From assembly GCA_903951405.1 (NCBI GenBank), contig CAJBBV010000195.1, positions 1 to 34,612 on the forward strand: DNA of 34,612 nucleotides, in the 5' to 3' direction. This document shows positions 4,894 to 30,891 of the stretch, one piece after another. Position 1 is the first letter of the stretch. The number at the start of each line of letters is the position of its first letter. Both the position numbers and the translations under genes were made by a program. This DNA is from an uncultured bacterium. GTDB taxonomy: Bacteria > Bacteroidota > Bacteroidia > Chitinophagales > Chitinophagaceae. A model generated the notes under the pieces. The model had not been told where the DNA came from and made no database searches. It saw only the letters and a list, made by a program, of their open reading frames with translations.

Positions 4894-5868
4894 CTAGCCT
4901 ACAATGATTTCATCAATTTTCCCAGCCACTTCTAATGCAGTGTGCTTGCCAATGTCATGAAACATCAATGAATTATTTCTTTTATCATACAATTTGACCT
5001 GCACTTCTGATGACATGCTTTCTTCTATTCGCCCATCCATTAGTCCAAGTATTGGAGAAGCTAACGCTGTAGCTTGATCACGTTTCGCCTTTATTTCAAG
5101 ACGGTATTTATTATTTTCCAGTATGATATCAACTTCTTTGTCGTTTGCAAATGATTTTTTAAGGCTTGTTCTATTATAGGTAGTAAACTGAATTAATTGG
5201 TCGTGTAGATGGAGTCCAGCAATGAATCCAACAAACGAACTTCCTAGCCAGGGTATTTTCGCAATGGATGTTTTCAGAGAAATTCCTGGTGTGCTAAAAT
5301 GGTTTGATTGAAGCCATATGTAAGCAGATGGGAAAGACCTCCCCCAGTCCTTTTCAATGTAGCCACGACCGTTTTCAAAATCGATTTCTTCATTATCTAT
5401 TACCAATTTGCCCGATATGCTGTGATCCATGCTTACAATACCATGATAACACTCCATAAACGGAACAAATGAAAATGGTCCCATTATTCCTGGAGAAAAA
5501 AATGAATTAGGCCATGGACGATTTCCCGTAAATCTCAGTGTGCCGATGGCACCTGGAAGGCTTAATGAAATGGAGGATGAAGAAAAACTATTTGTGTTTA
5601 CTTCTACATAAAATTCAGTCGGGGATGGCTTGAAGTCGCTTGCAGGAAATTTGTGGTAGAGCGCAGTTTTTTTCCTTCCATTGAGTACTTGAACAAAGGA
5701 TTGTTTATTTCCATGTTTATCCATTGCAATACCTGGTATAAACGCAAATGCTTTAGAGCCATCCGCGTTAACTATTTTGAAGTACCAGCCTTCGAAATAG
5801 TTTTTTTGTTTACCCCAGCCTTGAAAATATGCTGGGTTAAAAAAGGCATTAATTTTTTTAAAAATCAT
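4894..5868 (-). CDS. Tocopherol cyclase-like protein (VTE1/SlyX-fold family)
   Basis: A 324-residue protein that I recognise as the tocopherol cyclase family (Pfam Tocopherol_cycl). Plant and cyanobacterial VTE1 closes the chromanol ring of vitamin E. Family hallmarks are YFEGWYFK near residue 25 and the highly conserved block GRGYIEKDWGRSFPSAYIW with NHF shortly after, around residues 165-190. There is no signal peptide and no obvious membrane span. It starts at ATG and is only 8 bp downstream of the DUF4834-like gene, so they are probably co-transcribed. No homogentisate pathway genes are in the window, so a true vitamin E function is unlikely to be provable here. Many bacterial members are of unknown role and may act on other prenyl quinones or lipids. 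Confidence 0.8.
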   Translation of the reverse strand: MIFKKINAFFNPAYFQGWGKQKNYFEGWYFKIVNADGSKAFAFIPGIAMDKHGNKQSFVQVLNGRKKTALYHKFPASDFKPSPTEFYVEVNTNSFSSSSISLSLPGAIGTLRFTGNRPWPNSFFSPGIMGPFSFVPFMECYHGIVSMDHSISGKLVIDNEEIDFENGRGYIEKDWGRSFPSAYIWLQSNHFSTPGISLKTSIAKIPWLGSSFVGFIAGLHLHDQLIQFTTYNRTSLKKSFANDKEVDIILENNKYRLEIKAKRDQATALASPILGLMDGRIEESMSSEVQVKLYDKRNNSLMFHDIGKHTALEVAGKIDEIIVG

Positions 5869-22043: not shown

Positions 22044-22625
22044 ATGTTCAATTTAATCTTATTTGGTCCTCCAGGAAGCGGGAAAGGTACACAGTCGGAG
22101 ATGCTCATTACAAAGTACGGGTTCAAACATCTTTCAACAGGAGATCTTCTCCGTTCTGAAATAGCCAATAAAACTGATCTTGGGTTGAAGGCGAAGTCCT
22201 TTATGGATAATGGACAATTAGTTCCAGATGCGGTAGTCATTGGTATGGTAGATGCTGCACTTAATGCGAATAAGCAAGCTTCGGGTTTTTTATTCGATGG
22301 TTTTCCTCGGACTAAAGCACAGGCAATTGCCTTGGACGAGTTGTTGAAAAGTCATCAAACTTCTATTAGTCTAGTTTTAGCGCTTGATGTTCCTGAAGAG
22401 GAATTGATAGTCCGCATGATCAATAGAGCTAAAACATCCGGAAGGTCAGATGATGCGGATGAAGCCGTTCAAAAAAAGCGAATCTCTGTCTATAAAAATG
22501 AGACCCTGGCAGTTGCTGAGCATTATGCAGCGTTTGATAAAGTGATTACGCTGAATGGGCTTGGTGATGTTGATGAGATTTTTGCAAATCTTTGTGCCAA
22601 GATAGATGCTAAAGCTGAAATCTAG
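22044..22625 (+). CDS. adk: Adenylate kinase
   Basis: A 193-residue cytoplasmic kinase that interconverts ATP, AMP and ADP. The P-loop GPPGSGKGT is near residue 8, followed by the AMP-binding STGDLLR and FDGFPRT motifs and a short lid (SGRSDDADEAVQKKRI) without zinc cysteines. It is therefore the short-lid form, which is normal for Bacteroidota (about 190 residues). It starts at ATG after the predicted promoter at 21972. It is convergent with the DAB operon, whose last gene ends at 22672. Confidence 0.96.
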   Translation: MFNLILFGPPGSGKGTQSEMLITKYGFKHLSTGDLLRSEIANKTDLGLKAKSFMDNGQLVPDAVVIGMVDAALNANKQASGFLFDGFPRTKAQAIALDELLKSHQTSISLVLALDVPEEELIVRMINRAKTSGRSDDADEAVQKKRISVYKNETLAVAEHYAAFDKVITLNGLGDVDEIFANLCAKIDAKAEI

Positions 22626-22671
22626 TCCTAGTAGGGATTAAATTTAATAGGGTTATTTCGATAAATTTTTT

Positions 22672-24528
22672 TCAACTTGAACGAAATGCAACTGCGTGAC
22701 TCAGTTTTTTATGAGGCCCTAGAAATATCCTTATAAAAATCCGAATAGAGGCAAATTCCATGAATATGAGATATGTTGACAAGAGTATGATCAGTAATGG
22801 CTGATTTGTTCTTATATAGGTAAAAAAAACATCTGCTCCAATAAATGCACCAGTTAGAGGAAAGCCTATCATCCCTATTGAAGATAGCAGGAATAGAAAA
22901 GCAGTATTTTTTTCTTCGTAAACATATCCATGATATTGATTAAGTGATATGTCTTTGTCGATTTTTTTTACCCTATATAAGGTAAGATAACCTAGAATGA
23001 AGGAAATAAGAATTCCGCTTATGTATAAAATAACCTCAATAGATTTTATTTCTTTTTCATTATTGCTAATTCCGGCAAGTATAAAAATATGTGAAACTAC
23101 GAGAGCTCCCCAAGCTTTTAGTGCTGATCCACGATAGGAAAAAGAGAATAGGACTAAGGAGAGTGCTATGGTGAGCATTGAAATAGAGAGTGCTCCATCA
23201 AATGATTTAATTTGGTTATTGGCTAAAAAATAAATTAGAGAGCCTGTACCAATAATCAAAATGGTTGCAATTGTTTTTGTTTTTTTAAGCCAGTCAAATT
23301 GTTTGCCAATCCACTTAAAAGGAGTGTACAGGTACATATAGAAAAAATGATCTAATCCCCATTCCTTTATTCCTAAGACAAACAGTGTTGCCTTTAACTT
23401 ATTTAGTTTTTTTATTGGGGTAGGATGGTAGTGAAAATACTGGTTATGGATTAAGTAATTTAAAACTGATGGAGAAACTAGCAATTGATATGTTCGTAAA
23501 AACGCATTTCCTGCTATGTGAAGAAGTGCAAGAAAGTGAAATCCTAGTGCAATTTCAACAAAAATTATTCCAATTTGCGCCGCGGAAGAATATGCAATTT
23601 GAGTCTTTACGGTTGGTTGTACTCTAGAAATATGTGTTGAAACAATAGCAGAAACTAAGCCGATTACAACAACGACAGATTTAAACCAGAGCATATCTTC
23701 CCAAAAAGAGTATGTTCTAAGTAAGAGAAATGTGCCAATATGTACACTTAGTGATCCATAAAAAATGGCCGAAGAAGTTGTGGGTCCTTCCATGGCTCTT
23801 GGTAGCCAGCTTGTAAAAGGTATTTGAGCTGATTTAATCATGGCTGAAATCAATATCATAATGACTATGAATATTGCCATGGTTTCTTGTTTCTGTTGTG
23901 TAACAATTATCTTTAATTGAGACAGTTCTGTAAAGTCTATGTTTTTATGAGTCAAATGATGCATCATCCACATCATTAGCATCAATGCAACATCACTTAG
24001 CCTATAATTAGAGAGAACTTTGAAAGCATTTTTTACTGGTAGATAGCGATTTCTATAAAAGGCAATTAAAAGGAAAGAGGAGAGTCCGATAAACTCCCAG
24101 CCGAGAAATAAGGTTTCAAAATTTCCTGAAAAAATGATAAGGTTATAGCCAAACGCAAAAAATAAGATGGTGTTGAAAAATCTTTTATATCCTTCATCCC
24201 GATGCATATAGTATCGGCTAAAAGTTGTTACTAGGAAAAATGAAACAGCCCCGAGCAGGCTGAAAACTGCTGTAGTTCTGTCGTAATAGAAGTGTATAGC
24301 AAAAATAAAATCTTGGCTTTCGTAGATTGTAACTAAGTTAACGTGTATTTCTGGGGCTCCTGAGATAATCCATAAAATAGAATACCCAACTGCTAAAATT
24401 AAGTATATTGATTTAGTGATTTGTACAATTCCAGAAATAGCATTTTCGTGTTTATTCTTCCAAAATAGTGTTGTGAAAAATGCAAATAATGGTATTGCCA
24501 CAAACAATGTTATCAATTGATTCATCAT
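22672..24528 (-). CDS. dabB: DabB: NuoL-like membrane subunit of a DAB inorganic-carbon system
   Basis: A 618-residue polytopic membrane protein of the NADH-quinone oxidoreductase subunit 5 / antiporter family. Hydrophobic segments run throughout. The conserved core around EFIGLSSFLLIAFYRNR and FTSWLPRAMEGPTTSSAIFYG is present, including the Glu of AMEGPT. No other Nuo gene is nearby, whereas the preceding gene, 50 bp upstream, is dabA. In characterised DAB systems, DabB couples ion movement to DabA, which hydrates CO2 to bicarbonate in one direction. I infer the same job here. It is the last gene of the operon. An orphan Mrp/Nuo-type antiporter role is the alternative. Confidence 0.88.
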   Translation of the reverse strand: MMNQLITLFVAIPLFAFFTTLFWKNKHENAISGIVQITKSIYLILAVGYSILWIISGAPEIHVNLVTIYESQDFIFAIHFYYDRTTAVFSLLGAVSFFLVTTFSRYYMHRDEGYKRFFNTILFFAFGYNLIIFSGNFETLFLGWEFIGLSSFLLIAFYRNRYLPVKNAFKVLSNYRLSDVALMLMMWMMHHLTHKNIDFTELSQLKIIVTQQKQETMAIFIVIMILISAMIKSAQIPFTSWLPRAMEGPTTSSAIFYGSLSVHIGTFLLLRTYSFWEDMLWFKSVVVVIGLVSAIVSTHISRVQPTVKTQIAYSSAAQIGIIFVEIALGFHFLALLHIAGNAFLRTYQLLVSPSVLNYLIHNQYFHYHPTPIKKLNKLKATLFVLGIKEWGLDHFFYMYLYTPFKWIGKQFDWLKKTKTIATILIIGTGSLIYFLANNQIKSFDGALSISMLTIALSLVLFSFSYRGSALKAWGALVVSHIFILAGISNNEKEIKSIEVILYISGILISFILGYLTLYRVKKIDKDISLNQYHGYVYEEKNTAFLFLLSSIGMIGFPLTGAFIGADVFFTYIRTNQPLLIILLSTYLIFMEFASIRIFIRIFLGPHKKLSHAVAFRSS

Positions 24529-24578
24529 ATTTTGTAGTGATTCTGTTATTGGGGTATTAGTATTTGAAAATAAGTAGT

Positions 24579-27143
24579 TTATTGATTTAGAAGATAAACA
24601 GGAAGATTTTCTTTGGTAGCATGAGTGATGTGGTTGGTTTCCATTTCATTTGAAGACTCTAGAAACTCTTCCATATTCTTGATATAGCTAATTTCTTCAG
24701 ATTTGGTTATTGGTTCATAGTGTTCAAAAGCACCATCTTTAAATAAATAAAATTTTTGATCAAATGGGTTCATGGCAATAATGTGTACCCATTCGTTTTT
24801 ATACCATTCAAAAACATCAGGGGAAGAATTAATGGCTTTCAAGACTATCTCGGGACGATGTTCAACGATAACAAGTAGTCGAACAGGATCATGAACTTCA
24901 ATCATCTGCCAAGGCAGGCCTGGCCTTAAATCGCCATCACTACTATTAGCAACTCCAAACAAGCCCATTACATTATGTGGAAGTTTTGTGCCTGCTCCCA
25001 TTTTCAAGTTATCTACTCTGCTGAAATAATACTCTAAGTTGATCCCGCCGCACACTAAGCCAATAGGGCGCATTACATTTGAAAGAATTTCCCCACTTGG
25101 GTCGGTAGTATAGTCATAGCTATTTAGAAATGCTCTTCTGTCTAAGAAGAGGCCTTTACTCGTTTTTCTTCTACCAACTATAGCAAGTGTGTTGGTTCCG
25201 TGACCAAGCTCAGGCCTTGGCTCAAATAGTGATACTGAACGTTTTTGAATGGCTTGTCTTATTTGATTTAGATCTTGTTTTGTATCTATTGAAGCAAACC
25301 TTCTACTTCTTTCTTTTGCATTTAGATTTAAAGCGATTTCAAATTTATGTTTATTCTTGACATGTTCAATTTTTACTGAATTAATCAACACATCCTCGTC
25401 ATAATAATCTATAATGTCGGCCGCAGTATCATGCATACTTCCAATGAAGCAAGTATCATTTGGAATAAGGATGCCTTTAGTTGAAAGAATTTCTCTTACT
25501 TTTTTGTTGTTTAAAATGAAGGCTTGAACGCGGGCATTTACAGCACCTGGTCTGCCACTACATGCTCCACAATCATGTGCTCCATGATGAGGATTATTTG
25601 CACTGCTACTTCCATGTGATACAAGATAAATTATGGGGGCGAAATTTTTTATTAATCCAATGCCCCTCAGAAATCCTTCGGCTCTTGTAGCCATTTCATC
25701 GTTAGTGTATCCGATCTGTAATCCATTTTCAATGTCTTTTGGGTCCTTGTTCTCAATACTAAGTTTCGCATATTTATGCATATGTCCAAACGCATTTGAA
25801 ATTGCTGGACTCATCATTGGCTTGAAAAGTGTATTGATTGTTTTTATAAATGCCCAAAAACCAAATACTAAACTATATGCAATCCCTGTCATCATTCCGT
25901 GGGAATCTCTTGAATACAATAGTTCGTTTTTTCTTTCTGCTGTTGTTGAAAATTCTTTTATCAGATATTTTGGTGTAACAGGCGCTGGGCATAATTTATC
26001 ATAAAATTTGGAGTCGTGTTGTTGGAAATAAAATTCAACTCCAAAAAAACCTGGCGCACCCATTGTTTCACAATTTGGATCTGTCGCTTCAATATGTCGT
26101 CTAAGTGAACATTCTCTTTCATCAATGCAAAATATTGCTTGAAATGATTTTTGTAATGTATCTTCTTTATCTAGTTCATTTCTTTTTTTGTTAAATACTT
26201 GAATTCCCTTCAGAACCGTGTCATAGTAACTCCATTCAAAAGCATCTTGCCAGAGTTCAATTACTTCAGAAAATTCTGATTTGTTAACATCCTCAAATAA
26301 TAACGTAGGCTTTTCTTTAATAAAATTAGCCAAGGGTTTTCTGCTATCACCAAGTATTGCTGTAATAGTATCTAATTCAATTAACAGTTCAAATTCGACT
26401 AATTCCTTGAATGTTATTATTTTCTTATCTAATAATGTTTGTGGATTGTCTTCTACCGATGAAACAAAACCACTCCAGCCATTGTGAGCAAAGTGACTAT
26501 CAAATAGATATTGTTCAAAATATTGGGAATCGCCAACTATTTCTTTTAGTAGTGATTCAATAGAGTATGAGCCATTTGTGAAAAGTTCACGGATGGCTTT
26601 AGTTTTAAAAAAACTGACTAAGCTTTTTTGCTCTAGTTCTTTTATGCTTTCTATAAAGCTTTTGTTTTGAATAGGGAACCTGTCTATAGCAACCCCTTGA
26701 TCTAAAAAAACACATAATATTCTGAATAGTCTAGGATGAACTAATCCATCAAGATCTATTTTGTATACATCCTTCCATAACTTTCTGATTTGTCCGATTC
26801 TAGGGTGTTTTATAATATTATAGTGTACGTGTATCATTTTTTCCAACCATACATCAATGTTTTTATTTTTTTTTGAAATTATATTTATAATAATTTCTTC
26901 TTTAATCCTTCCCGTGGCATAAAGCTCTCTGTATTCGTTAAGTTCTAGGTGCACATGGTATCCAAAAATATTTGATGCTTTAAATATGGCATCATAAAAT
27001 TTCATGTGTTGAAAGGCGTGCAGTGAATTATGATGAATGAAATCCTTGAGTGCCTGCTGAGATGGTAAATAATGTTTCAACTCACTTAAAATACGATCTG
27101 TATTGAATTGAGCAGAAGAACTATTTTCTTTGTACGTATCCAT
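24579..27143 (-). CDS. dabA: DabA: DUF2309 carbonic-anhydrase-like subunit of a DAB system
   Basis: An 854-residue protein of the DUF2309/DabA family. It carries the four expected zinc-site residues: Cys339 and Asp341 in AIFCIDERE, and His510 and Cys525 in HGSSSANNPHHGAHDCGAC. The 15-residue His-Cys spacing equals that of the characterised Halothiobacillus protein as I recall it (His524/Cys539). Other family marks are ETMGAPGFFGVEFYF, EGFLRGIGL, and the C-terminal GLPWQMIEVHDPVRL. There is no signal peptide or long span, so it is probably membrane-associated through DabB. It is flanked by sulP and dabB in one operon. Heterotrophs use such systems to keep bicarbonate for carboxylases when CO2 is low. 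Confidence 0.93.
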   Translation of the reverse strand: MDTYKENSSSAQFNTDRILSELKHYLPSQQALKDFIHHNSLHAFQHMKFYDAIFKASNIFGYHVHLELNEYRELYATGRIKEEIIINIISKKNKNIDVWLEKMIHVHYNIIKHPRIGQIRKLWKDVYKIDLDGLVHPRLFRILCVFLDQGVAIDRFPIQNKSFIESIKELEQKSLVSFFKTKAIRELFTNGSYSIESLLKEIVGDSQYFEQYLFDSHFAHNGWSGFVSSVEDNPQTLLDKKIITFKELVEFELLIELDTITAILGDSRKPLANFIKEKPTLLFEDVNKSEFSEVIELWQDAFEWSYYDTVLKGIQVFNKKRNELDKEDTLQKSFQAIFCIDERECSLRRHIEATDPNCETMGAPGFFGVEFYFQQHDSKFYDKLCPAPVTPKYLIKEFSTTAERKNELLYSRDSHGMMTGIAYSLVFGFWAFIKTINTLFKPMMSPAISNAFGHMHKYAKLSIENKDPKDIENGLQIGYTNDEMATRAEGFLRGIGLIKNFAPIIYLVSHGSSSANNPHHGAHDCGACSGRPGAVNARVQAFILNNKKVREILSTKGILIPNDTCFIGSMHDTAADIIDYYDEDVLINSVKIEHVKNKHKFEIALNLNAKERSRRFASIDTKQDLNQIRQAIQKRSVSLFEPRPELGHGTNTLAIVGRRKTSKGLFLDRRAFLNSYDYTTDPSGEILSNVMRPIGLVCGGINLEYYFSRVDNLKMGAGTKLPHNVMGLFGVANSSDGDLRPGLPWQMIEVHDPVRLLVIVEHRPEIVLKAINSSPDVFEWYKNEWVHIIAMNPFDQKFYLFKDGAFEHYEPITKSEEISYIKNMEEFLESSNEMETNHITHATKENLPVYLLNQ

Positions 27144-27193
27144 ATTATAGGCTAATTCAAGTATGAAATAAGTTCTATGTGTAGACCAAACTT

Positions 27194-28777
27194 TTAACCT
27201 TGCTTCATTGTAGAATAATCATACTCTGCATTTTCCATTTTGTATGCAGGTCGGAAATTGATCAATTTTACTTTGATATTTTTATCCTTAGAGCCAAAAT
27301 CGACAAAGTTGCGTATGAGTTCTAAGACGTCATGATCTATATATACAGTATGAGCCGCATTGATAATAAGTTTACTATTGTTTGGTAAATTTGACAATGA
27401 CTGCTTGATCATGGCTTTATTCAAGAACGACACTTCTTGCGCCAAGTCGATTTGAGTTGTTTCGCTATCATTGTGGTGTTCTTTATTAAAAAAGTAAGCT
27501 AATTTCATATTTCCTCTGAGGATGAAGTATATGCTAAATGCCAATCCAATGCCTACTCCTTTTAAAAGATCTGTAAAAACAACTGCAACTACGGTAACTA
27601 CAAATGGAATGAATTGTTGTTTGCCTGCATTCCATACATGACGAAAAGTTTTTACACTAGCAAGTTTAAAACCAATCATTATTAGAATTGCAGCAAGACT
27701 TGCCATAGGAATTTTGTTGAGCAGGCTAGGGATAGTTAAAACTGCAACTAGAAGAAATAGACCATGAAAAATAGCTGATAGTTTTGTTTTTGCTCCTGCA
27801 TTCACATTTGCACTTGTTCTAACAATAACCGATGTCATGGGCAATCCCCCAATTAGTCCAGACAGCATATTGCCAATTCCCTGTGCCCTTAGCTCTGCAT
27901 TTGAACTCGAAAATCGTTTTAATGGATCCATCTTGTCTCCTGCTTCTAAGCAAAGAAGTGTCTCAATGCTTGCAACAATTGCAATTGTAATACCAACAAC
28001 CCATACGCTTGGGTTTGTAAACCCTGATATTGAAGGAAGAGTAAATTGTGTAAAGAATTCATTTAGTGAACTGGCTTTTGGCAGCATAACTAATTGTTCA
28101 TTAGGTATCGCTAATGATGGGAAAGCTGTAATAAAAAATTCGTTCAAGGCAATGCCTGAAGCAACTGCAACTAGAGCACCAGGTATAGCCTTTATTTTTT
28201 TTAATGCTGATATATTATTGAATGCATAAATAATGAATAGTGAGGTAGCCGTAACAATTATTGCACCCAGATGTGCAAAGTTGAAGGAGTGTAATATGTT
28301 AGTGACAAAACCATAATCTTCTTTTAAAATCTCATATGAGAAAAATTGACCATCATTGATAGTGCCGTAGCCAATGGCATGTGGTAATTCTTTTTTTATG
28401 ATGATAATACCAATGGCAACCAGCATGCCTTCGATGACGCTAGTAGGGAAGTAGCTAGAAATGCCTCCTGCTTTTGCCAATCCTAAAGTAAGTTGAATAA
28501 GGCCTGCAATGACGACTGCGGCTAAAAAAGTTTCATAGCCTAAATCGGTAATGGCTAGAAGAATAATGGCAATTAGACCTGCTGCTGGTCCGGATACACT
28601 AACATGTGATTTACTCAAAACCCCAACAACTATTCCTCCTATTACCCCTGTGATGATTCCTGCGAATGGGGGAGCCCCGCTTGCTACTGATATTCCCAGA
28701 CAAAGTGGTAGTGCTACTAAAAAAACTACCATTCCCGACAACGCATCTGCTTTAATATCTGTAAAGATTGTTTTCAT
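27194..28777 (-). CDS. SulP-family anion transporter with STAS domain
   Basis: A 527-residue inner-membrane transporter of the SLC26/SulP family. Hydrophobic spans cover about residues 10-410. Signatures are GMVVFLVALPLCLGIS near the start, SHVSVSGPAAGL, and the block GIGNMLSGLIGGLPMTSVIVRTSAN. A C-terminal STAS domain occupies about 440-515. It is 6 bp downstream of the carbonic anhydrase and 50 bp upstream of dabA. Family members carry sulfate, bicarbonate or other anions; with these neighbours bicarbonate (as in BicA) is the best guess, but the sequence alone does not decide it. Confidence 0.92.
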   Translation of the reverse strand: MKTIFTDIKADALSGMVVFLVALPLCLGISVASGAPPFAGIITGVIGGIVVGVLSKSHVSVSGPAAGLIAIILLAITDLGYETFLAAVVIAGLIQLTLGLAKAGGISSYFPTSVIEGMLVAIGIIIIKKELPHAIGYGTINDGQFFSYEILKEDYGFVTNILHSFNFAHLGAIIVTATSLFIIYAFNNISALKKIKAIPGALVAVASGIALNEFFITAFPSLAIPNEQLVMLPKASSLNEFFTQFTLPSISGFTNPSVWVVGITIAIVASIETLLCLEAGDKMDPLKRFSSSNAELRAQGIGNMLSGLIGGLPMTSVIVRTSANVNAGAKTKLSAIFHGLFLLVAVLTIPSLLNKIPMASLAAILIMIGFKLASVKTFRHVWNAGKQQFIPFVVTVVAVVFTDLLKGVGIGLAFSIYFILRGNMKLAYFFNKEHHNDSETTQIDLAQEVSFLNKAMIKQSLSNLPNNSKLIINAAHTVYIDHDVLELIRNFVDFGSKDKNIKVKLINFRPAYKMENAEYDYSTMKQG

Positions 28778-28783
28778 ATATAA

Positions 28784-29446
28784 TTAAATATTAGCCTTTG
28801 CAGTGTTACTTACTTTGGTTTTTTTTGCGATGTTTTTGAAAAAGTCAACAATTCCAGTATTGACATTATATACGGCACCTATAATTCCTAAATCACCCTT
28901 TGTAAATAAGTCTTTGATTATTTCACTACCTGTTATAATTTCTTCAAGACTATTTTCAACATTAGCATATGAAACATTTTCATTAAATAAATAATTACTA
29001 TCGTCCATGAGCATAGCTTTGCTTATAGAAGGTTGTATCCTATCTAGTAGCTCAGTAATATGCCCGTCTTTAACACCTTTTTTAGCACTGTCGATTGCGC
29101 CACATTCTGTATGACCTAATACAACAAGCACTTTTGATCCGACATATTTCACGGCGTATTCAATGCTTGCTATGATATCATTGTTTACGATATTGCCAGC
29201 TATACGAATGCTAAAAAGATCTCCTAGCCCTTGATCAAATATCAATTCGACTGAAGTGCGAGAGTCCATACAACTTAATATAACTGCAAAAGGGTATTGA
29301 CCATCTCTTGTTTCATTTATCATTTCCAAATGATCATGATCTTTATTAAGTGAATGAATAAATCGTTGATTTCCTTCAACTAACAGATTGAATCCTTGTT
29401 CAGGTGTAAGTTGTTCGAGAAATTCTTTAGAATGTTTTTTCATCAT
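28784..29446 (-). CDS. Beta-class carbonic anhydrase
   Basis: A zinc enzyme converting CO2 and bicarbonate. From the ATG at 29446 the product has 220 residues; the frame is open 15 bp further to a TTG at 29461, which I do not favour. Zinc ligands are Cys59 and (in the closed form) Asp61 in CMDSR, and His112 and Cys115 in GHTECGA. FSIRIAGNIV follows the first motif as in the family. No signal peptide, so it is cytoplasmic. It is the first gene of the operon with sulP, dabA and dabB. A cytoplasmic carbonic anhydrase would dissipate a bicarbonate pool, so its place in this operon suggests it supplies the substrate of a carboxylase or balances pools. Confidence 0.92.
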   Translation of the reverse strand: MMKKHSKEFLEQLTPEQGFNLLVEGNQRFIHSLNKDHDHLEMINETRDGQYPFAVILSCMDSRTSVELIFDQGLGDLFSIRIAGNIVNNDIIASIEYAVKYVGSKVLVVLGHTECGAIDSAKKGVKDGHITELLDRIQPSISKAMLMDDSNYLFNENVSYANVENSLEEIITGSEIIKDLFTKGDLGIIGAVYNVNTGIVDFFKNIAKKTKVSNTAKANI

Positions 29447-29568
29447 ATAGTAGTTTCTCAAATACCTTTAATGTATTTGATGTTAATAAAAAATAGAATA
29501 TAATAAGAGTTTTTTAAACTCCAATAAAATTTATGAACTGTAGGGATTCTGAATAGTGTAGTCTATGC

Positions 29569-29943
29569 CTAAGCATTGCAGTTTGGCGGGGGCACTAGAA
29601 GCTCTCCGTGATAAGCATGATAGAGTTTAGTCTTGTTAGTTTCGAAGTAAGATACTTTTTGTATATGGTTTGTTTCAAATTCAGAAGGATTGTGTACGAA
29701 CTTTTCGATACTATTATCGTTTGCAGGGGCGTCTTCTTCGTTGGTATTGCTATTTAAGAGGTTTGATGCCCCATCTTCGGAGTCATCAATAGGATGGGGT
29801 GTATTTTGTTCAGGTGTATTTTGAGAAAATTCCTGAGTGAAAAATGCTATAGGGGTGCTAATAGTTAAAGCTATTACAGCAAGTAAGAGTAAGCTTGCGT
29901 TTATTTTTTTTATTGCGTTGTATATATTCCTATTTTTTCTCAC
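29569..29943 (-). CDS. Unknown single-span protein upstream of the DAB operon
   Basis: A 124-residue protein that I do not recognise. It starts with GTG (no ATG upstream in frame). Residues about 15-36 are hydrophobic (ASLLLLAVIALTISTPIAFF) and could be a signal or anchor. The middle (40-85) is Asn/Glu/Asp/Pro-rich and disordered. The C-terminus is more ordered and ends in the striking HGELLVPPPNCNA. It is 107-122 bp upstream of the carbonic anhydrase gene on the same strand, so it may be co-transcribed. Codon use looks like its neighbours. Confidence 0.7.
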   Translation of the reverse strand: MRKNRNIYNAIKKINASLLLLAVIALTISTPIAFFTQEFSQNTPEQNTPHPIDDSEDGASNLLNSNTNEEDAPANDNSIEKFVHNPSEFETNHIQKVSYFETNKTKLYHAYHGELLVPPPNCNA

Positions 29944-30135
29944 TAACTGTAAAATGTATTTATGGAGAGTGAAATTACATCAATTAAGTTGATGAATTGC
30001 AATTGATTTTTAATTTTATTTGATATAATTATTATGTTTTAAATAATATGGGGCCGATTTTTTTGTTCAAATTTAAAACAGTCTAAATGAAATATTGACT
30101 TGATTGTTCAATTGCTATTAATTATAAAAATTTTG

Positions 30136-30891
30136 TTAAATATTCAAGCCTCCGCAAGCGCTGATAACCTGTCCGGTGATATAGCTACTCATATCTGACG
30201 CTAGGAATAGGGTTGTATTGCCTATTTCTTCTGCTGTACCGAATCTTCCAAGGGGTATTTTAGCTAAAAATGCTTCTGCCGCAGCGCCTTCTTTAAGATA
30301 ATGAGTCATATCTGTTTCAACGAAACCTGGAGCAATGGCATTCACCCTAACATTTCTACTTCCTAATTCAAGCGCAATGGATTTAGTGAATCCAATTATA
30401 CCAGCCTTGCTCGCAGCATAACTTCCTTGTCCCGCATTTCCACGAACGCCAACAATAGAGCTCATATTGATAATAGATCCTTTTTTTGATTTCATCATAG
30501 GGCGAATCACTTGCTTTGTCATATTGAATACACTTTTGAGGTTGACGTTCATCACCTCATCCCATTGCTCTGGGGTCATGCGGAGCAGCAAATTATCTTT
30601 TGAAATTCCAGCATTGTTAACGCAAATATCAACTGTGCCAAATTCTTTTACTACATCATTTACAAACGACTCTGCTTGCTGATAGTCTCCGGCATTGCTT
30701 TTCCACGCTTTTGCCTTTACGCCTAACAGCTCAAGTTTATTCACTAGAGTGGTTGCTTTTTCTGCACTACTGTCACTAACATAAGTAAATGCAATATGGG
30801 CGCCATGTTCGGCTAATTTTATGGCAATTGATTCACCGATTCCGCGTGCTGCGCCAGTAATTATAGCAACTTTATTTTCAAGTAATTTCAT
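30136..30891 (-). CDS. fabG: 3-oxoacyl-[acyl-carrier-protein] reductase
   Basis: A 251-residue NADPH-dependent short-chain dehydrogenase that reduces beta-ketoacyl-ACP in fatty acid synthesis. The cofactor motif TGAARGIG is at 12-19 and NNAG at 92-95. The catalytic triad is Ser145, Tyr158 and Lys162 (GSYAASKAG), and IAPGFVETDM and the C-terminal GGLNI are as in FabG. Length is normal. It is 70 bp downstream of the GH3-like gene, probably the last gene of that unit. Bacteroidota can have several FabG-like genes, but this one is close to the canonical form. Confidence 0.9.
   Translation of the reverse strand: MKLLENKVAIITGAARGIGESIAIKLAEHGAHIAFTYVSDSSAEKATTLVNKLELLGVKAKAWKSNAGDYQQAESFVNDVVKEFGTVDICVNNAGISKDNLLLRMTPEQWDEVMNVNLKSVFNMTKQVIRPMMKSKKGSIINMSSIVGVRGNAGQGSYAASKAGIIGFTKSIALELGSRNVRVNAIAPGFVETDMTHYLKEGAAAEAFLAKIPLGRFGTAEEIGNTTLFLASDMSSYITGQVISACGGLNI

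Follow-up and report, generated by a model that had tools for sequence, protein, structure and literature searches.

A SulP-linked operon of an uncultured Chitinophagaceae bacterium predicts a divergent DAB complex with replaced proton-path residues

The question raised by this locus is whether a gene cluster of a probable heterotroph, described in the initial annotation as a complete DAB-type operon, encodes a complex equivalent to DAB2 (DabA2-DabB2 of Halothiobacillus neapolitanus, PDB 9rd0), the proposed prototype of PMF-driven carbonic anhydrases (PMC13144422). The window, meaning the whole stretch of DNA analysed, comprises 34,612 nt of contig CAJBBV010000195.1 from assembly GCA_903951405.1, which is 90.9% complete and derives from an uncultured Chitinophagaceae bacterium.

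The operon and its chromosomal site

In the ORF list the four genes can-sulP-dabA-dabB all lie on the minus strand, with gaps of 6, 50 and 50 bp. The genes and their surroundings are as follows:

22044..22625, plus strand: adk (ADK 172.6 bits), one border of the interval by synteny
22672..24528, minus strand: dabB, NuoL-like membrane subunit, 618 aa; Proton_antipo_M (PF00361) 126 bits; 9rd0_B E 1e-25
24579..27143, minus strand: dabA, assigned by tree to the SulP-linked subfamily, 854 aa; PF10070 681 bits over 21-786; 9rd0_A E 1.3e-61
27194..28777, minus strand: sulP, SulP/SLC26-type anion transporter, 527 aa; Sulfate_transp 169 bits
28784..29446, minus strand: beta-carbonic anhydrase (CA), 220 aa; Pro_CA 131 bits; C59/D61/H112/C115
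29507..29521, no strand: 15 bp palindrome GAGTTTAAAAAACTC, found from the sequence between ORF124 and CA
29569..29943, minus strand: ORF124, small protein with a single hydrophobic stretch, candidate fifth component
30136..30891, minus strand: presumably a fabG-like reductase, the other border of the interval by synteny

For CA, the ORF list sets the start earlier, at a TTG at 29461. From the spacing we infer that the four genes are co-transcribed, and GAGTTTAAAAAACTC is possibly a regulatory or terminator element. The same genes occur in the same order, at 84-96% identity, in another member of the genus, and the set recurs, whole or in part, in many relatives, a conservation that rules out a chance cluster. 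At the fabG/adk site, CA was found at or beside the site in 24 of the 25 loci examined from the same genus, and synteny showed CA and SulP there without DAB in relatives.

A conserved small upstream frame, ORF124, was absent from the initial annotation. It gave no Pfam or NCBIfam match, lies upstream of the operon in 25/52 subfamily loci and is present in 5 of 41 genomes of the genus, all five among the nine that carry DabA. ORF124 tracks the operon in nearer relatives, and is a candidate fifth gene of the system.

The CA has the Pro_CA domain and the Cys-Asp-His-Cys set of a beta-carbonic anhydrase, no signal peptide evident by eye, and is one of two CA genes in this assembly. The SulP is the only SulP match in its own assembly by genome search. 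Its Glu272 and Cys276 stand at the positions of BicA Asp258 and Thr262, the Na+ site of BicA, with Asp258 as Na+ ligand; Glu occupies this ligand position in 78/79 SulP proteins of DAB loci. NCBIfam scores were 185.5 bits for DauA and 120.7 for BicA, both below cut-off (880 bits for the BicA equivalog). Judged by the Na+ site and the NCBIfam cut-off, this appears not to be a BicA-type Na+/HCO3- symporter; a role as a bicarbonate route is plausible. The placement of SulP beside CA resembles known BicA/SulP-carbonic anhydrase pairs, from which the window differs by Glu272 in place of Asp258 and by the linkage to DabA-DabB.

A separate subfamily with an altered proton path

With a PF10070 gene beside a PF00361 gene, and with the Zn site and dyad present, the predicted products constitute a DAB complex in the broad sense. 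In the tree, however, window DabA and DabB are separated from DabA2 by a long branch (SH-aLRT 100), and by sequence they belong to a deep, divergent subfamily apart from the characterised DAB2. The four genes, their gaps and the named metal-site residues of DabA and CA were all as first described, and gene set, Zn site and homology uphold the DAB assignment, but not the implied equivalence to DAB2. Placement outside the DAB clade had been named beforehand as grounds for refutation; the position found removes DAB2 equivalence and leaves DAB homology standing. The notion of a DAB2-like pair is not supported, given the long branch and the lack of a finger glutamate and of three proton-path residues. 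The replaced and retained residues lie in these features:

23494..23520, minus strand: DabB H337-R345; H337 kept, N341 at His343, R345 at Lys347
23758..23760, minus strand: DabB Y257, at DabB2 His260
25200..25217, minus strand: DabA RPELGH (R643-H648); L646 at Trp656 (T2 gate), H648 at Leu658
25827..25892, minus strand: DabA finger helix, in which no residue is acidic; K434 lies near DAB2 Glu444
26052..26054, minus strand: DabA P364, at DAB2 Ala376, the tunnel T1 bottleneck
26112..26129, minus strand: DabA CIDERE (C339, D341, R343, E344); Zn ligand, Asp-Arg dyad and Glu at DAB2 Ser356

The catalytic centre of DabA is conserved. C339, D341, R343, H510 and C525 align with C351, D353, R355, H524 and C539 of 9rd0, and the Zn ligands and Asp-Arg dyad are intact in 93/93 subfamily DabA; His585 and Asp590 of DAB2 are also shared by the window. 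Around this centre, Ser356, Ala376, Trp656 and Leu658 of DAB2 are all replaced. Leu658, which in DAB2 stands where beta-CA has Gln or His, is His in all 93 subfamily DabA versus none of 35 DAB2-type sequences (35/35 Leu), and both tunnel bottlenecks are changed (A376P in 91/93, W656L in 92/93). The finger window has no acidic residue in 80 of the 93 and one in the other 13, and the Lys434 column is basic in 87/93. Glu444 is kept in 31 of 34 DAB2-type DabA other than 9rd0, the exceptions being three of the 24 chromosomal sequences (L162, L164, L165). The finger alignment is ambiguous, as phmmer sets K434 at Glu444 and MAFFT a hydrophobic residue or Gln, and the claim regarding Glu444 is limited to the absence of a finger acid from the window sequence, with few relatives having one.

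In DabB, Tyr, Asn and Arg replace the proton-path residues His260, His343 and Lys347 in 86-87 of 87 subfamily rows (K347R in 87/87), whereas His/His/Lys was invariant in the 33 DAB2-type DabB and 11 NuoL rows examined. One subfamily DabB, that of L142, retains His343. Other features of the path remain: S253, K308, S314, H337 and K232 match DAB2 Ser256, Lys310, Ser316, His339 and the ion-pair Lys235, although the Ser316 position is Ser in 58/87 subfamily rows and, 9rd0 aside, just 6 of 33 DAB2-type rows have Lys at the Lys235 position. Window DabB keeps the NuoL-like ion-pair residues Glu145, Arg176, Asp179 and Lys232 and has a NuoL-like Glu at DAB2 Ile151, and Glu389 and Lys405 are invariant across 56 subfamily DabB. 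Window DabB is also longer than the DAB2 chain (618 versus 551 aa).

These counts include both L144 and L181, which are identical, and leave out two overlapping DabB frames of L057 that gave odd residues. The DAB2-type set was small (24 chromosomal, 10 others and 9rd0), with most chromosomal loci too short to show SulP/CA neighbours, and DAB1 and MpsB sequences lie outside it. The DabB model resembled complex I NuoL in a structure search, as expected, and phmmer with a DabB fragment returned no match. For the AF2 model of window DabA (pLDDT 85.4), Foldseek against the PDB gave nothing at E<=0.001 (best E 0.41); 9rd0, probably too recent for the library, was absent among the matches listed, a result without bearing on the fold. 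A plasmid search with window DabA revealed no close relative among 123 records (30 listed), all with <60% identity.

Gene neighbourhood also sets the subfamily apart. The window order is dabA-dabB, versus dabB-dabA in 24/24 DAB2-type loci of the phylum, and SulP and CA neighbours are features of the window rather than of DAB2. Among the 52 of 98 subfamily loci with enough flank, mostly from nearer relatives, DabB lay directly downstream of DabA with SulP nearby on the same strand in 52/52, and CA was present in 47. Ten loci from a wider sample of the phylum had SulP on the same strand in six, on the other strand in two and none in two, with CA in one; since L233 of this sample is L144 of the 52, nine loci were new, with CA in none, and SulP on the other strand in two and lacking in two. 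When pooled (61 loci), same-strand SulP was found in 57 and the dabA-dabB order in 61. One subfamily locus, L124, belongs to a named strain, Flavobacterium laiguense LB2P30. Neither SulP nor CA is an obligate partner of this subfamily, given nine further loci without CA and four without same-strand SulP, and the residue findings are independent of which neighbour genes occur.

The SulP-linked dabA-dabB arrangement is itself already known, from COGNAT clade C of COG3002 operons in 2017, in which dabA (ybcC) lies upstream of a nuoL homologue with SulP (COG0659) as neighbour (PMC5700660). The window has this arrangement, the match being by gene order and SulP neighbour. In the accessible portions of that source, a COG1008 (NuoM) neighbour is also described, no function is given, and discussion of catalytic residues is limited to three conserved cysteines; to that extent, the subfamily-wide residue replacements appear to be new. 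The literature searched yielded no assay of any member of this subfamily, no description of its residue replacements, and nothing on DabA with DabB in Bacteroidota.

Possible modes of action

The favoured reading, given a probability of about 0.55 on sequences and predicted monomers, is that the operon serves a probable heterotroph as a module for bicarbonate supply, with a DAB coupled differently from DAB2. Its parts would be a beta-CA in the cytosol, the SulP anion transporter and a membrane complex belonging to the divergent, usually SulP-linked DAB subfamily. DabA, a Zn enzyme, would form bicarbonate from CO2 at the membrane face of the antiporter-like DabB, with this hydration coupled to ion movement through DabB by a path other than that of DAB2, as suggested by the replacement of the finger acid and of three residues of the proton relay, together with retention of the NuoL-like ion-pair residues. 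The bicarbonate would feed anaplerotic and biosynthetic carboxylases rather than a RuBisCO CCM; SulP would add another route for bicarbonate, and CA would keep the pool in balance.

Bicarbonate supply is indicated by the intact Zn site, the SulP/CA linkage, the absence of any RuBisCO large-subunit match in the 90.9%-complete assembly, and MpsAB of Staphylococcus aureus, a homologous pair likewise in a heterotroph, which complements CA-less E. coli according to the part of the source available (PMC6689103). The first proposal, that a probable heterotroph carries an inorganic-carbon operon, is well supported by the same Zn site, neighbours and RuBisCO search; on the last of these, in an assembly 90.9% complete, an autotrophic RuBisCO-based CCM is rejected. 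The cytoplasmic CA had been expected to short-circuit a bicarbonate pool; that this would be an oddity of this one genome is rejected, CA being present beside DAB in 47/52 loci, though in none of the nine wider ones. Against the favoured reading, changes elsewhere could make up for the replaced residues; since a heterotroph produces CO2 by respiration and two CA genes are present here, it is questionable why a further route from CO2 to bicarbonate would be needed; and the 52 loci are mostly from near relatives, with looser SulP/CA linkage in the wider loci. Homologues have also been viewed otherwise: the sections available propose MpsAB as a Na+/HCO3- cotransporter, with S. aureus listed as lacking CA (PMC6689103), and chromate/oxidative-stress tolerance for a Leptospirillum DUF2309 gene studied in E. 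coli, which lies downstream of its nuoL-like partner in the DAB2-type order (PMC9080137).

An ordinary, PMF-driven vectorial carbonic anhydrase like DAB2, with the replacements neutral or compensated (e.g. by DabB Glu389/Lys405 or DabA Lys434), is a less likely alternative. The two-subunit composition and Zn site are the same, DabB keeps K232, S253, K308 and H337, and DAB2 tolerates Leu658 substitutions in vivo (PMC13144422). However, substitution of Glu444, His260, His343 or Lys347 impairs or abolishes DAB2 (PMC13144422), and the DabB replacements are fixed rather than scattered. The latent catalysis of DAB2 has been put down partly to Leu658, to tunnel gating and to a proton wire of NuoL type that ends at Glu444 (PMC13144422).

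Of similarly doubtful standing is the proposal that the subfamily is a membrane carbonic anhydrase of a second, mechanistically distinct kind. The complex-I-type proton wire would have been lost through the change of His-His-Lys to Tyr-Asn-Arg and of the finger acid, with a basic residue near its place, and the pocket would have become more beta-CA-like through His at 658 and two changed bottlenecks; DabB would then cease to relay protons in the DAB2 manner and would move another ion, possibly bicarbonate, or merely dock a freely catalytic DabA at the membrane. A PMF-independent variant is less probable again. Here DabA would be a freely catalytic, membrane-docked CA, with His648 as a beta-CA-type transition-state residue and with altered gates, and DabB an anion/bicarbonate path or a scaffold with fixed positive charges (Arg345, Lys434). 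The near-universal L658H, A376P, W656L and K347R changes, the basic Lys434 column and the acid-free finger window agree with this, but L658Q in DAB2 gained no in vitro activity (PMC13144422), the finger alignment is uncertain, and retention of Lys232, Lys308, His337 and the NuoL-like ion pair suggests residual ion translocation.

Least probable is an export or exchange module, in which bicarbonate formed by DAB and CA would leave through SulP in exchange for sulfate or another anion, for anion uptake or pH control and not carbon supply: same-strand SulP in 57/61 loci, the Glu at the BicA Na+-ligand position and the better DauA score are in its favour, but both family scores are below cut-off, direct evidence of exchange is lacking, SulP is on the other strand or absent in 4/61 loci, and CA and SulP occur at the same site without DAB.

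Implications for the DAB family

Since the DabA finger lacks its glutamate and DabB lacks three residues of the proton path, PMF-driven CO2 hydration is not simply transferable from DAB2, and the label of PMF-driven CO2 pump for such Bacteroidota genes is unproven. This is a natural subfamily in which the Zn site is intact and the differences fall at just the features invoked for DAB2 coupling, and it offers a ready comparison for finding the residues that impose coupling and keep hydration one-way in DABs. Material for such comparison is also provided by a single chromosomal site occupied in relatives with and without DAB, and the subfamily has a bearing on how antiporter-like subunits of complex I become repurposed.

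The operon and its place among DAB systems

The operon is a real feature of the source genome, because its genes, protein families and residues were found as the initial annotation had described them, and because the same four genes with the same flanking neighbours occur in another member of the genus (G176) at 84-96% identity. The four genes lie at the positions first assigned to them and share the minus strand, the gaps of 6, 50 and 50 bp being confirmed; their products matched Pro_CA, Sulfate_transp, DabA and Proton_antipo_M above the Pfam cut-offs. The metal-site residues previously named are present, those of DabA also aligning with the solved DabA2 (PDB 9rd0). The features of the region are:

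22044-22625, plus strand, adk
22672-24528, minus strand, dabB
24579-27143, minus strand, dabA
27194-28777, minus strand, sulP
28784-29446, minus strand, carbonic anhydrase (CA) gene
29507-29521, perfect 15-bp palindrome between the CA gene and ORF124
29569-29943, minus strand, ORF124, 5' of the CA gene, encoding a small protein whose one hydrophobic stretch lies close to the N-terminus
30136-30891, minus strand, fabG-like gene

The source assembly (2.46 Mb), in which the window is contig C195, is 90.9% complete. Elsewhere in the window, positions 4894-5868 hold a tocopherol cyclase-like gene (Pfam, 82 bits), which would not be expected in a heterotrophic Bacteroidota.

The assignment of DabA and DabB to the DAB clade held in part: the zinc site is shared, but a long branch separates them from DabA2. 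In a DabA tree of 91 rows, with four trait columns masked, a branch of length 3.24 (SH-aLRT 100) separated 56 rows of the divergent, usually SulP-linked group of the window (here, the subfamily) from 35 others, among them DabA2 and ten plasmid-borne rows from Archaea, Actinomycetota and Pseudomonadota. When NuoL was included, subfamily DabB, DAB2-type DabB and NuoL each occupied one side of a branch in an unrooted tree with long branches. AlphaFold2 models were obtained for DabA (pLDDT 85.4, pTM 0.88) and DabB (pLDDT 88.8, pTM 0.90). The DabB model resembles NuoL; the DabA model gave no significant match to the PDB, which bears on its fold neither way because 9rd0 was not among the matches listed and is probably absent from the library.

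Gene neighbourhoods of the subfamily

Species genomes were scanned with a profile built from nearby DabA, which yielded at least 588 matched stretches, at least 519 of them relatives, and the best 80 relatives were kept; the subfamily set comprised 98 DabA loci after five duplicates were dropped. Flanks of 3.2 kb or more upstream and 4 kb or more downstream were available for 52 loci, mostly near relatives; among these, DabB lay directly 3' of DabA in all, SulP was nearby on the same strand in all (upstream in 48), and a CA was nearby in 47. A wider check used longer stretches for ten subfamily loci from an even phylum sample, one of them already among the 52. The dabA-dabB order was found in 10/10, SulP lay on the same strand in six, on the other strand in two and was not seen in two, and CA was present in one. 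Of the combined 61 loci, 57 had SulP on the same strand and 47 had a CA close by. Because of the phylum-sample counts, SulP is regarded as the usual, not obligate, partner of the subfamily DAB, and CA linkage as a trait of the window's nearer relatives. Two subfamily pairs (loci L227 and L235) had neither a SulP nor a CA match nearby, and two others (L231 and L232) had SulP on the other strand and no CA match nearby; these four offer a natural experiment on the need for SulP and CA.

In the phylum, the DAB2-type loci whose DabB could be seen had the order dabB-dabA in 24/24 cases. The gene arrangement of the window, with ybcC (dabA) upstream of a nuoL homologue and SulP near, was described in 2017 as that of a clade C, its function being left open in the available part of that paper (PMC5700660). 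No paper on the chemistry of clade C was found among the open-access matches listed, as judged by title and start of abstract.

ORF124 had no match in Pfam or NCBIfam, and its C-terminal part is conserved (HGEL..PPPN). Of the 52 subfamily loci with sufficient flank, 25 have it upstream in the same orientation, and it occurred in 5/41 genus genomes, all within the nine that carry DabA; in nearer relatives the presence of the family follows that of the CA-SulP-DAB operon. In three relatives (L017, L077, L079) a second copy adjoins a second, distant SulP, and so the partner of ORF124 may be SulP rather than DAB.

Replaced residues and coupling

Among the functional residues of DAB2 named in the available part of PMC13144422, the zinc ligands, the Asp-Arg dyad, His585 and Asp590 are kept in 93/93 subfamily DabA. 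Others are replaced: Ser356 by Glu (92/93), Ala376 of the T1 bottleneck by Pro (91/93), Trp656 of the T2 gate by Leu (92/93), and Leu658 by His (93/93), the last being Leu in 35/35 DAB2-type rows; Pro704, also of the T1 bottleneck, is variable. The replaced sites sit within gap-free motifs (CIDxR, G-x-PGFFG and RPExG-x). Leu658 occupies the position of the transition-state Gln or His of beta-CAs; the same source reports it as strictly conserved in 150 homologues and states that its changes neither stopped DAB2 in vivo nor freed activity in vitro (PMC13144422). For the membrane finger, A and Q mutants of Glu444 are said there to abolish activity. This residue is Glu in 31/34 DAB2-type rows other than 9rd0; in the subfamily, where the alignment is uncertain at the finger, an acidic residue is absent from the finger window in 80/93 and the K434 column holds Lys or Arg in 87/93. 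Three DAB2-type DabA (L162, L164, L165) have Ser or Gly in place of Glu444.

In DabB, the DAB2 positions 260, 343 and 347 are His, His and Lys in 33/33 DAB2-type rows and 11/11 NuoL, and are Tyr (87/87), Asn (86/87) and Arg (87/87) in the subfamily. Fixed differences as such are not rare, since 7/70 near-invariant DabA columns and 10/28 of DabB, compared over fragments, carry a different, fixed residue in the subfamily. A role is named in the available part of PMC13144422 for four of the seven and three of the ten, and it is these role-bearing residues that are notable.

A Tyr-Asn-Arg relay lacking the finger acid should not work in the manner of DAB2, and the best option is that the coupling path would be rerouted relative to that system. 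Alternatively, the pair might be DAB2-like, with the replaced relay residues compensated; in DAB2 itself, Ala at His260, His343 or Lys347 each impairs function (PMC13144422). The other alternative is a PMF-independent system with an uncoupled DabA or an anion-conducting DabB; the NuoL ion-pair residues (E145, R176, D179, K232) are kept in subfamily DabB and mostly lost in DAB2-type DabB. In the incomplete source assembly no NuoL match exceeded the cut-off, the two below it being DabB itself (188 bits) and a 431-aa frame on contig C150 (101 bits).

The fabG-like/adk site and the likely role of the operon

A survey of 25 genomes of the source genus showed that inorganic-carbon genes are swapped in and out of the fabG-like/adk interval. 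Its contents (22044-30891 in the window; loci L039-L046, L056-L075 and L201) include CA of two types, SulP that varies in identity, and DAB in some cases. CA-SulP-DAB lies between the fabG-like gene and adk in the source genome, G176 and G169; in G168 the contig breaks off with only DabA-DabB-adk in view, and G160 and G171 have the operon, or its start, on the other side of fabG. Two genomes (G178, G159) carry CA-SulP without DAB at the site, 12/25 pair SulP with another type of CA, which over the matched part is about 24-32% identical to the window CA, and in 5/25 this other type stands alone or at the end of a contig. As DAB comes and goes at one site where a CA was seen in 24/25 genomes, it is an optional part of a fixed carbon-supply site. 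DabA matches were found in 9/41 genus genomes and, counting both kinds of DabA together, in 11/147 of the family and 30/395 of the phylum (PF10070). Three loci may represent degenerating or split copies, or else errors of assembly: L063 (G171) has remnants of DabA, L057 (G160) has a DabB spread over two overlapping frames, and L020 (G140) has a DabA divided into two ORFs.

The sequence evidence points to CO2/bicarbonate chemistry for the operon, because the zinc site is intact and CA and SulP are neighbours. The source assembly gave no match to the RuBisCO large subunit at 90.9% completeness, and holds one SulP and a second, distant beta-CA gene (24% identical). A related pair, MpsAB, is reported to supply bicarbonate in a heterotroph (PMC6689103), and for other Bacteroidetes an anaplerotic uptake of carbon that is stimulated by light and involves CA and a bicarbonate transporter has been suggested (PMC4148732). 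The simplest reading is that the operon supplies bicarbonate to carboxylases in a heterotroph.
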